Below are positions 8,965-12,312 of a stretch of 64,000 nucleotides of DNA, in pieces. Location: NCBI RefSeq assembly GCF_017312365.1, contig NZ_BLJI01000010.1:62001-126000 (forward strand), read 5' to 3'. The position numbers and the translations under genes were made by a program. The notes below the pieces were generated by a model. The model was not told the origin of the DNA and ran no database searches. It saw only the letters and a list, made by a program, of their open reading frames with translations. How positions within the stretch are numbered: the first letter of the stretch is position 1; each line of letters starts with the position of its first letter. Source of the stretch: Chroococcus sp. FPU101. Lineage in GTDB: Bacteria; Cyanobacteriota; Cyanobacteriia; Cyanobacteriales; Microcystaceae.

Positions 8965-9744
8965 TCAAAAATCGAGAATTTTGTCATAATCCAGCTTTAT
9001 TTGAGCAAATTTTGACGAATCGATTGAGGATTGTCCATCAGGACAGGTTTTATTATTAAAATCACACTTATAGATATGTGGTTTTTGCCAACTTAGAGGA
9101 ATTTCGAGCAGATCTCTTGATCCTGTCATTCCTTGTCCGATGAATAGCAATAAAGCAACACAATTGAGAACAGTATGGATCATGCGCCAACGGTGGGAGC
9201 GATCTTTATAGATATCTTCAACGATCGCCAATGAAAAAATCATCAGCATTGAAGCCGCCATCCCTATATAGTAGTGTGACCAATACCATTGATTAGACAG
9301 GCGATACACCCCATTTTGACAGCCTAAAATAATTAAACCCATTCCCGTTAATGTGGCAAAAATTGCCCGCCACTGTTTTGAACGAGCGCGATACAGCAAA
9401 AACAGGGAAACAACGGTCAAAATAAACATCAAAACAATAAAAATCACTTGAAAGATTTGTAGGGTGCCATCTTTTTGTTGATCGATCCATCCTTTGTAAC
9501 CGTAGACGACAGAATAAGCTAAAGCAACAAGATTAACACCAACGACAGAAGCAGCTAACCATCGTCCAATTTTCAGATGTTCTGAGCCAACAATGGGCGG
9601 AATTTTACTTTTACCACCATCTTTACTTTGTAAACGTCTTTGACGGGTTTGCCAAGCGAAGTTTACTGATATACCAATGATAGGAAAAACAAAAGCAACC
9701 GCTAAGACAGGGTGGATAAGGGAAATAAAGTCTTCAAATTTCAT
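8965..9744 (-). CDS. DUF4079 family membrane protein, possibly a di-haem cytochrome b561-like protein
   Basis: This 259-residue protein has about six hydrophobic segments. It matches the cyanobacterial DUF4079 pattern (HPVLAVAFVFPIIG at the N-terminus, HYYIGM later, MIHTVLN near the end). His11, His56, His157 and His190 lie in or at the edges of membrane helices, the kind of arrangement that binds two b-type haems in cytochrome b561-like proteins; this is inference, not shown. A soluble tail after about residue 215 has the two cysteines of its CDFNNKTC segment. The gene is divergent from the RnfD-like gene, with a 357-base gap between them. Confidence 0.75.
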   Translation of the reverse strand: MKFEDFISLIHPVLAVAFVFPIIGISVNFAWQTRQRRLQSKDGGKSKIPPIVGSEHLKIGRWLAASVVGVNLVALAYSVVYGYKGWIDQQKDGTLQIFQVIFIVLMFILTVVSLFLLYRARSKQWRAIFATLTGMGLIILGCQNGVYRLSNQWYWSHYYIGMAASMLMIFSLAIVEDIYKDRSHRWRMIHTVLNCVALLLFIGQGMTGSRDLLEIPLSWQKPHIYKCDFNNKTCPDGQSSIDSSKFAQIKLDYDKILDF

Positions 9745-10101
9745 AATTATATTTGTAATAAATGATCAGAGTAGCTTGTTTTAGGTAATACGTCCCTATC
9801 GATCACATTGGATTGAGTACGATATTAAGAACTTAACTTTCTATTCTGAGATGTGGTTGAGAAAATGAGCCGAAAAACTTAAAAAAAACTGAAAACACAT
9901 TGTAACTACATTTTAGTCGCCATTTTCATCGCAAAAAAGAAGTTTTTGTTACTGTTGTTATTGAAACTTTACATTAATAGGATTGACTAAATACAAGAAT
10001 ATTGCTGATCAAAATAGTTGTTACGGAAAGTGAAACAGGAACTTGAGCATTTAAAAGTCAATGTCATAATTGGAAAATTAACAATCGATGAATCTTTGCT
10101 C
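9745..10101. other. Divergent intergenic region between the DUF4079 and RnfD-like genes
   Basis: This is 357 bases of AT-rich sequence. It must contain the promoters of both divergent genes. A plausible plus-strand promoter lies around 9955-9980 (TTGTTA, then TACATT 17 or so bases on), but I cannot support a specific site. No RNA gene, repeat or convincing small gene is seen. Confidence 0.3.
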
Positions 10102-10982
10102 ATGTTTTTCTCGTTTAAAGATGCGCGTGATTATCAAATTTTGTTTTTGTCATTGTTCCTTAGTTTAGGAATTATGACTCGTGCTTGGACAATTAGGATT
10201 GATTGTGTTGTGGTTGCTTTAATCAGTTGTTTACTCACACAGTTTATTTTAACTTGTTGGTCAGTTAATGAACTAAAACAACAGGAAAGTTTTTTTTTGA
10301 GCAATGGAGTTTTAAGTTTAAAGAATTTCCTATCTCTAATTTAAAAAGTGCTGTTATTACTGCGTTAGGACTAAGTTTATTACTGCGAGTTAATGATGTT
10401 AAAACAATGGCGATCGCTGGATGTTTAGCCATTGCTAGTAAAATTTTCTTTCAGTCAAAAAATAAACATTTTTTTAATCCTGCAAATTTTGGACTTATTA
10501 CAACTCTACTCTTAACTAAAGATGCTTGGATATCCATTGGGCAATGGGGAAGTGATTGGATTTATTTATTGTTGTTTTTAGGTCTAGGAGGAATTGTCTT
10601 AAGAAAAGTTGGACGATGGGATACTTCAGTCATTTTTCTTTTATCCTACTCAAGTTTAGAACTGATTCGTAATGTTTGGCTAGGATGGAGTCTAGACGTA
10701 TTGCAACACCATTTAATGAACGGTAGTTTACTGGTTTTTGCTTTATTCATGATTACTGATCCTCGTTCAATTCCTAATTCTCGAACCAGCCGTATTATTT
10801 GGTCAATCTGTTTAGCTGTTCTCGCTTTTATCTTGGAACACAAGTTTTATTTAAAAACGAGTTTCTTGTGGTCATTATTCCTGTTATCTCCTCTTACTCT
10901 TATTTTAGATCAGGCATGGAAAGAAGATGAATTTCAGTGGAATACGTTTAAGTCTAAACAAAAACTAAAATCAATTATGTAA
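10102..10982 (+). pseudogene. RnfD/NqrB-like membrane protein, interrupted by a frameshift in a T9 run
   Basis: The chosen start is the ATG at 10102 (MFFSFKDARDYQILF); TTG or GTG starts at 10018-10030 are less likely. The first frame ends at about 10344. From the T run at 10290-10298 another frame continues through FEQWSFKFKEFP and joins the long downstream reading to 10982. Adding one T gives one 293-residue protein with about nine membrane segments. The HFFNPANFG loop and the FMITDPRSIP motif are typical of the RnfD/NqrB/RnfE superfamily. The S/T-G-A-T flavin-attachment motif of RnfD is not visible, so it may not carry covalent FMN. The next gene starts 25 bases on, a likely operon. The break may be a sequencing error or a slippage site. 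Confidence 0.75.
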
Positions 10983-11007
10983 ATTTTACATTGAATTCTA
11001 CAAAAAC

Positions 11008-12312
11008 ATGAAAAAAATCAGTATTATCTTATTCACCCTATTTACTCTTTTCTTACTCACTAAACCTGCTTTAGCCTTTTGTGGCTTTTATGTAGCTAAA
11101 GCTGATCAAAGTTTATATAACAAAGCTTCTCAGGTAGTGATTGCTAGAAATGGACAAAGAACCGTTTTAACAATGGCAAATGATTATCAAGGAGATGTCA
11201 AAAACTTTGCTCTTGTTGTCCCTGTTCCCGTTGTCCTAAAAGAAGAGCAAGTTAATATAGGAAATTCTAAAATAATCGAAAGATTAGACGCATTTAGCGC
11301 ACCGAGATTAGTAGAATATTTTGATCCAGATCCCTGTATTGTTTATAACAGAAGAGAAGTTTTTCCGTCAGCACCATCTGTATCTGAAGACCGTGTGAGT
11401 CAAAAAGCTGCTAGTAATAGTGCGTTAGGTGTCACTGTCGAAGAACAATTTACAGTCGGTGAATATGATATTGTCATTCTTAGTGCTAAACAATCAAATG
11501 GTTTAGAAACTTGGCTTAGACAAAATGGTTATCAAATTCCTAAAGGTACGAGTGCTTTACTAAAACCCTATATCCGCCAAAATCTAAAATTTTTTGTCGC
11601 TAAAGTCAACTTACAAGAATTTGCTAAAACGCGATTTAGTTCACTGCGTCCCTTACAAATGGCTTATGAATCTCCTAAATTTATGCTACCCATTCGTTTA
11701 GGGATGATTAATAGCCAAGGGGAACAAGATTTACTCATTTATCTGCTTTCCCCTAAAGGAAGGATTGAATTAACAAATTATCGTACTGTTAAAATTCCTT
11801 CCGATGCTGATATACCTGAATTTGTACAAAAAGAATTTACTGATTTCTATAAGGCTATGTTTGGGAAAAGTTATACCCAAGAAGGAAAAAAAGTGGCTTT
11901 TCTCGAATATGCTTGGGATATGAGCAGTTGTGATCCTTGTTCGGCTGAACCTTTAAACTCAGAAGAATTAAGAAAAGCGGGCATTTTTTGGCTCAATGAG
12001 CATCAAGATTCTAGTGTTTTTATCACTCGTCTTCATGTGCGTTACAGTAGAAATAAATTTCCAGAAGACTTACAGTTCCAAGAAACCGCTAATCAAGAAT
12101 CTTTTCAAGGTCGCTATGTAATGCGTCATCCATTTAAGGGTGAACTTAGATGTAGTGCTGCACAAGGCTATAAAAATAGCGTTCGGACTCGTCAAGAACA
12201 AGAAGCGCAAACCTTAGCTAGATTAACGGGATGGGATATCAATCAAATTCGGAGCAAGATAGAGTTTATAAAGAGTAGTTCTACTCCTTGGTGGCGCAAT
12301 TTGTGGAATTAG
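11008..12312 (+). CDS. Secreted DUF2330 family protein with a CxxC motif
   Basis: This 434-residue protein has a clear Sec signal peptide (MKKISIILF...ALA, cleaved at about residue 22-23) and the DUF2330 opening CGFYVAKADQSLYNKASQVV. Cysteines include the first mature-region Cys, one in DPDPC, a C308-D-P-C311 pair, and one near the C-terminus, so a thiol-redox or disulfide-stabilised role is possible. It lacks a C-terminal membrane anchor. Its function is unknown in the family. The 25-base gap to the RnfD-like gene indicates co-expression and suggests an exported partner of that membrane protein. Confidence 0.8.
   Translation: MKKISIILFTLFTLFLLTKPALAFCGFYVAKADQSLYNKASQVVIARNGQRTVLTMANDYQGDVKNFALVVPVPVVLKEEQVNIGNSKIIERLDAFSAPRLVEYFDPDPCIVYNRREVFPSAPSVSEDRVSQKAASNSALGVTVEEQFTVGEYDIVILSAKQSNGLETWLRQNGYQIPKGTSALLKPYIRQNLKFFVAKVNLQEFAKTRFSSLRPLQMAYESPKFMLPIRLGMINSQGEQDLLIYLLSPKGRIELTNYRTVKIPSDADIPEFVQKEFTDFYKAMFGKSYTQEGKKVAFLEYAWDMSSCDPCSAEPLNSEELRKAGIFWLNEHQDSSVFITRLHVRYSRNKFPEDLQFQETANQESFQGRYVMRHPFKGELRCSAAQGYKNSVRTRQEQEAQTLARLTGWDINQIRSKIEFIKSSSTPWWRNLWN

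Follow-up and report, generated by a model that had tools for sequence, protein, structure and literature searches.

RnfD and NqrB are electron-transfer and sodium-pump subunits. Their relatedness to ammonium and urea transporters is stated in a review (PMC12174285). According to an account of the RnfD of C. tetanomorphum (PMC9588780), flavin mononucleotide (FMN) is attached to Thr153 within a linker at residues 140-190, and a riboflavin near the presumed sodium site has Asn124 and Asp248 on its flanks. Flavinylation components are described, in a survey (PMC8238504), as strikingly under-represented in Cyanobacteria. Here we describe a cyanobacterial relative of RnfD encoded in a stretch of 64,000 nucleotides from Chroococcus sp. 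FPU101 (contig NZ_BLJI01000010.1, positions 62,001 to 126,000; the whole stretch is referred to as the window). Its gene and that of an exported DUF2330 protein form a genuine two-gene unit, which occurs across the window's order, Cyanobacteriales, and has a small number of occurrences outside that order. The initial annotation of this DNA had proposed a membrane redox module, in which these two proteins and a divergently encoded DUF4079 protein would move electrons to exported thiols; we tentatively favour, at somewhat below an even chance, one two-protein envelope system composed of a flavin-free, channel-like RnfD-like membrane core and its exported DUF2330 partner.

The distribution of the two families was assessed by profile search. 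Among 148 genomes of the order, DUF2330 is present in 91 and PF03116, the RnfD-like family, in 89; the two occur together in 86 genomes, DUF2330 alone in five and PF03116 alone in three, and 54 genomes have neither. The PF03116-only genomes are G014 and G060, with large frames (1046 or 956 amino acids) that also bear an UnbV match, and G107, with its gene at a contig edge; one of the five DUF2330-only genomes (G010) has just a broken RnfD-like piece. For 244 genomes of the phylum the corresponding numbers are 54 with both, six with DUF2330 only, three with PF03116 only and 181 with neither, and G148, which lies outside the window's class, also carries the pair. In the order, 82 of 87 RnfD-like genes are followed on the same strand by a DUF2330 match 92-342 base pairs downstream, a distance measured between profile matches and not between genes. 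The remaining five comprise G107 and four members of the window's own family (G036, G059, G078 and G129), in which the two genes are unlinked and both are kept though apart. This adjacency count omits seven short trailing rows, representing fragments of genes that are broken or divided between contigs, and the frames of UnbV-fusion size in G014, G037 and G060, all of which are kept in the presence count. Similarly, among 80 cyanobacterial genomes found via DUF2330, whose loci are the best of 571 confirmed DUF2330 matches, an RnfD-like gene lies directly upstream in 72 (including L175 and L185, where it is present with overlapping frames), does not do so in four (SU3, Crocosphaera watsonii, Acaryochloris and Synechocystis salina), and four contigs are too short to tell. 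Beyond the pair itself, no gene cluster recurs in more than four of 41 regions (loci L072-L111 and the window).

Several variants of the DUF2330 loci were observed. Tandem DUF2330 genes, in two to four copies and mostly behind a single RnfD-like gene, occur in seven of the 80 loci (L125, L121, L131, L136, L150, L181 and L189). The distant phylum member G181 has nine DUF2330 matches, three of which are tandem paralogues without a CxxC motif (L237:3054-8505). The single DUF2330 match on plasmids is a split copy on a plasmid of Deinococcus sp. QL22 (L202:8046-9149), 51% identical to that of the window and with no RnfD-like gene among its annotated neighbours. An apparent fusion of the two proteins in G330 (a frame of 824 amino acids) was ruled out; it consists of two separate genes.

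The alignments used below contain 80 of the 88 near-complete DUF2330 proteins from the loci (A2, to which the window's was added) and 59 of the 67 near-complete RnfD-like proteins (A3), eight near-duplicates being left out of each. An AlphaFold2 model of the RnfD-like copy of Xenococcus sp. PCC 7305 (L112; predicted local distance difference test (pLDDT) 88.9, predicted template modelling score (pTM) 0.87) matches RnfD (8rbq_D) over the full-length, ten-helix fold, with a Z-score of 24.2 and 247 residues aligned at 3.8 Å; the Z-scores are about 22 for NqrB, 12 for AmtB and about 10 for urea transporters. In the model, helix 5 ends at residue 146 and helix 6 starts at residue 161, leaving a linker (147-160) of about 14 residues, as compared to the residues 140-190 given for C. 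tetanomorphum in the account cited above. Judging from this model, the linker for covalent FMN is gone from the cyanobacterial RnfD-like family, in agreement with the initial annotation, which had remarked on the lack of a flavin-attachment site. An SGAT-like stretch near H211 was considered as an FMN site and dropped; the solved RnfD chains and PMC9588780 place the FMN-bearing Thr in the linker between the two halves. N134 and D228 are invariant in all 59 aligned proteins and, by alignment to the solved RnfD chains, are the equivalents of Asn124 and Asp248 in the C. tetanomorphum account, and no Cys is invariant among the same 59 proteins. The window's C-terminal piece, scanned alone, reaches 37.7 bits with the NCBIfam rnfD model TIGR01946, compared to its cut-off of 207.05.

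The accessory apparatus of Rnf is scarce in the order. ApbE (PF02424) was detected in one of the 148 order genomes (G017, with neither gene of the pair; 7 of 14 controls positive), and RnfA/E (PF02508) in none of the 148 (4 of 14 controls positive), such that no order genome with the pair has either of them. An Rnf-like route of electron delivery is unlikely, because the FMN linker is cut and ApbE and RnfA/E are so nearly or wholly missing from the order.

DUF2330 returned no match in the literature searched, and its partner and predicted fold provide a first handle on the family. C25, C110, C308, C311, C382 and H343 are invariant in all 81 proteins of A2; at the end of the signal peptide, read by eye in the window's protein, A21 and A23 are nearly invariant and F24 and C25 invariant. 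The CxxC motif (C308/C311) of the earlier description is upheld. Two orphan proteins, from G008 and G056 (no PF03116 match), lack C110 and C382 and keep C25, C308, C311 and H343, so that the CxxC is ruled out as a pair-specific feature; conversely, in five distant DUF2330 proteins, encoded by three genomes, C110 and C382 are retained, Tyr takes the place of H343, and the CxxC is absent from all five. Because the two sets are lost separately, albeit in small numbers of proteins, a C110-C382 disulfide is likely, and we infer a second site composed of C25, C308, C311 and H343. Such a combination of residues would be less expected of a dithiol shuttle than of a site with a structural or metal-binding role.

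A model of the DUF2330 protein (pLDDT 78.9, pTM 0.76) consists largely of beta structure, along with several helices, and the matches listed for it include no thioredoxin-fold entry. Its top fold match in both libraries is baculovirus P35: Z-score 10.3 to 1i3s in the Protein Data Bank over 222 aligned residues at 4.8 Å, the next unrelated entry having 6.0, and in Foldseek an E-value of 2.9e-4 with TM-scores of 0.24/0.34. In the viral library the best P35 match has an E-value of 1.2e-3, and the next match 0.12. No Protein Data Bank chain is related in sequence to DUF2330 at an E-value of 1 or better, and the P35 family is not among the 16 Pfam families matched by 81 DUF2330 members. According to PMC7863939, P35 traps caspases with a loop Asp and its N-terminal Cys2; in DUF2330, C25 and the variable loop 112-138 show a resemblance to Cys2 and this loop that is suggestive only. 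A caspase-family target for a P35-like DUF2330 is unsupported, since 8 of 12 genomes with no C14 peptidase match have the pair.

RnfD-like domains are also associated with another type of protein. G060 and G303 each encode a single protein that combines the domain with FG-GAP repeats and an UnbV/ASPIC domain, and in G206 a separate RnfD-like gene lies one small gene away from an FG-GAP/UnbV protein, with a DUF1702 gene beyond, an arrangement which we take to be the UnbL/UnbV/UnbU set of enediyne clusters. The literature searched had no paper that joins any two of UnbU, UnbV and enediyne, and PF07593 (UnbV) has no match in the window's genome. Among the loci, fusions to FG-GAP/UnbV were observed at L111:6790-9642, where Rieske, GH3 and desaturase genes lie in the vicinity, and at L234:4230-7097, and separate RnfD-like and FG-GAP/UnbV genes, with DUF1702 near them, at L235:5224-9189. 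We take RnfD-like cores to be repeatedly paired with beta-rich, presumably exported proteins, and these fusions and neighbours are the best support for viewing the pair as a membrane core and its exported partner.

The features of the locus within the window are listed below.

8965-9744, minus strand: long-type DUF4079 membrane protein, 259 amino acids (PF13301, E-value 1.5e-45); judged a bystander

9745-10101, no strand: divergent intergenic region between the DUF4079 and RnfD-like genes

10102-10982, plus strand: RnfD-like membrane protein gene, frame broken; likely ATG at 10102

10290-10298, plus strand: run of nine T at the break of the RnfD-like frame

11008-12312, plus strand: exported DUF2330 protein, 434 amino acids (PF10092, E-value 1.5e-75); partner of the RnfD-like gene

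11008-11076, plus strand: DUF2330 signal peptide, residues 1-23, as read by eye; A-L-A, then F24-C25

11929-11940, plus strand: CDPC (C308-C311) of DUF2330, invariant in the 81 proteins aligned

The coordinates and Pfam matches agree with the initial annotation in that the DUF4079 and RnfD-like genes diverge and DUF2330 starts 25 bases after the RnfD-like stop. The window's DUF2330 scores 254.5 bits with PF10092 (curated cut-off 24.7), and the C-terminal piece of the RnfD-like gene 49.2 bits with PF03116 (E-value 6.3e-13; curated cut-off 27.7). Promoter-like matches between 8900 and 12420 number six, which is fewer than in shuffled sequences (mean 11.9).

The DUF4079 gene was assessed as a third member and ruled out by its distribution and lack of linkage. 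DUF4079 is present in 147 of the 148 order genomes, and a phmmer search for the long type found none in 120 loci surrounding DUF2330 or RnfD-like genes (L072-L191), which are unequal in length and mostly contain the pair, some having one of the two genes or an UnbV fusion; the short type was covered by the neighbour clustering of L072-L111 and the window. The three-family co-occurrence that the earlier proposal called for is thus specific for the RnfD-like and DUF2330 genes, DUF4079 being found nearly everywhere. The view of DUF4079 as a bystander has against it that the long type adjoins the pair in a congeneric species (G343) as well. H11, H56, H157 and H190, to which the initial annotation had drawn attention, show no variation among 11 long-type proteins, the window's included; four conserved His in or near helices would be expected of a cytochrome b561-like protein, and their invariance would fit a haem membrane protein. 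In the literature searched, the family appears in one paper, which tabulates a DUF4079 gene among the transcription start sites of Nodularia. We judge DUF4079 to be a nearly universal bystander and not part of the system.

The RnfD-like gene of the window is not a single intact frame, a point missed by the initial annotation, and its assignment to the family stands. The N-terminal part is open from 10018 to 10344 and the C-terminal part from 10272 to 10982, in different frames that meet at the run of nine T, and the window has just one other A/T homopolymer of nine bases; the two parts match the family profile at positions 4-59 and 70-285, respectively. G343 has the same gene order with one intact RnfD-like gene of 294 amino acids in the same place, and the corresponding stretch lacks the T run. 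Because both parts fit the family and 54 of its 57 invariant columns are kept, the sequence is that of a family member that is either broken or mis-sequenced. An RnfD-like frame broken in the same loop between helices 2 and 3, beside a short-repeat insertion, was also observed in Nostoc sp. CMAA1605 (L158:3889-4796). That the pair survives in this strain as a decaying remnant, with the RnfD-like gene a pseudogene, is in our estimate doubtful, if far from negligible. It would account for the break opposite an intact congeneric copy, and for the departures of the window's copy, which number three at the 57 invariant columns and 14 at the 113 conserved ones. When each of the 59 family members was left out in turn, none reached the former number and one matched or passed the latter. 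Yet L072 and L107, two of nine picked intact relatives, depart at 3 and 4 of the 57 columns and at 13 and 19 of the 113. Moreover, both RnfD-like pieces look to be under selection in the comparison with G343: their ratio of nonsynonymous to synonymous substitution rates is 0.16 each, near the 0.14 of DUF2330, though above the 0.07-0.10 of six neighbours, and a homopolymer error in this 104-contig draft is equally likely. We read the frame break as a recent break or such an error, rather than as an old pseudogene.

For the pair as found in the order at large, the preferred reading is that of the envelope system. The RnfD-like protein may act as a flavin-free channel- or transporter-like core, which would keep the Asn and Asp (N134, D228) lining the cation/riboflavin site of RnfD as described in PMC9588780. 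The exported DUF2330, predicted to be a secreted beta-rich protein with the C110-C382 disulfide and the second set of residues (C25, C308, C311 and H343), would occupy the outer face, the side taken in Rnf by RnfG and the FMN linker; the cargo might, as a guess, be a cation or other small solute. It is rather unlikely, though with an appreciable chance, that the RnfD-like protein is not a transporter and instead anchors an exported beta-rich partner (DUF2330 here and FG-GAP/UnbV elsewhere) to the membrane, or helps it to fold or mature. The occurrence of the domain beside both kinds of partner argues for such a role, as do the tandem DUF2330 copies behind a single RnfD-like gene; however, DUF2330 can be kept alone, with no PF03116 match in 5 of 91 genomes (G010 with its broken piece), and a ten-helix core with the kept Asn and Asp exceeds the needs of an anchor. 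A membrane redox module, in which electrons travel outwards from the RnfD-like protein, which may bind riboflavin non-covalently, to the CxxC of DUF2330, and in which DUF4079 may or may not take part as a b-type cytochrome, now appears improbable. The RnfD fold, the conserved equivalents of the riboflavin-flanking residues of the C. tetanomorphum account, the invariant CxxC and the four invariant His of long DUF4079 speak for it. Weighed against these are the loss of the FMN linker, the scarcity of ApbE and RnfA/E in the order and their lack in every pair-bearing genome there, an RnfD-like family with no invariant Cys, a DUF2330 model that does not appear thioredoxin-like, the CxxC retained in two orphans, and the unlinked long DUF4079. 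The case for electron transfer to exported thiols is weakened, though riboflavin in the absence of FMN leaves it a small chance. Finally, that DUF2330 is a P35-like inhibitor, trapping a cysteine protease via an exposed loop and a Cys near the mature N-terminus, with the RnfD-like protein merely tethering it, is hardly credible. P35 is the top fold match in both libraries and C25, by eye, adjoins the mature N-terminus as C2 does in P35 (PMC7863939), but the TM-scores and the identity (10-11%) are low, neither Pfam nor the Protein Data Bank yields a related sequence, and the pair occurs in genomes with no C14 peptidase match.

Several points weigh against the envelope-system reading itself. Its transport substrate, pore and contacts are conjectural, and the kept Asn and Asp would be compatible as well with a protein that holds riboflavin but no FMN. 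The equivalence of N134 to Asn124 leans on a weak stretch of the alignment and an NPA motif, and H131 is replaced by Ala in the distant G148 copy. The Fisher values for the co-occurrence (1e-30 and 2e-43) overstate independence, the genomes sharing ancestry, and G159, counted among the 54 phylum genomes that have both families, has an ordinary Rnf-type PF03116 (E-value 2.7e-99) on another contig than a divergent DUF2330, and does not carry this type of pair. The ApbE and RnfA/E searches covered the order only, and the pair may be inactive in Chroococcus sp. FPU101, its RnfD-like copy being broken.

If the preferred reading is true, a large cyanobacterial group of RnfD relatives without the flavin apparatus, tied to one exported partner, would show the RnfD fold's own role, and would bear on whether RnfD arose from, or reverted to, a channel. 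Automatic names may mislead for this group, which is presumably labelled "electron transport complex subunit D". More speculatively, and with little credence on our part, RnfD cores freed of flavin may on several occasions have been recruited to supply the membrane half of an envelope system, with DUF2330 in most of the instances observed here and otherwise with FG-GAP/UnbV proteins, with DUF2330 a bacterial relative of the P35 fold that has a bait-like loop (112-138) and a Cys beside the mature N-terminus.

Among known systems, the RnfD-like protein shares with RnfD/NqrB (PF03116) the ten-helix fold throughout and, as N134/D228, Asn124/Asp248; it differs in that about 14 residues remain of the FMN-bearing linker that joins the five-helix halves, and in residing in order genomes without RnfA/E and with almost no ApbE. 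The flavinylated NQR/RNF-like extracytosolic electron transfer systems, as outlined in PMC8238504, likewise use an RnfD/NqrB-like membrane protein, but theirs come with an NqrF-like domain, FMN-binding proteins and a requirement for ApbE. Ammonium and urea channels (AmtB, UT) have the same helix arrangement, with Z-scores of about 9-12 and 7-13% identity. Among the folds matched, that of baculovirus P35 (MEROPS I50) comes closest to the DUF2330 model, and DUF2330 differs from it in its low identity and TM-score and in being bacterial and exported with five invariant Cys. The type which we take to be UnbU-UnbV likewise has an RnfD-like membrane domain together with a beta-rich, presumably exported protein, either fused to it or encoded nearby; there the neighbours are DUF1702, or Rieske, GH3 and desaturase genes, whereas here the partner is DUF2330, a different family.

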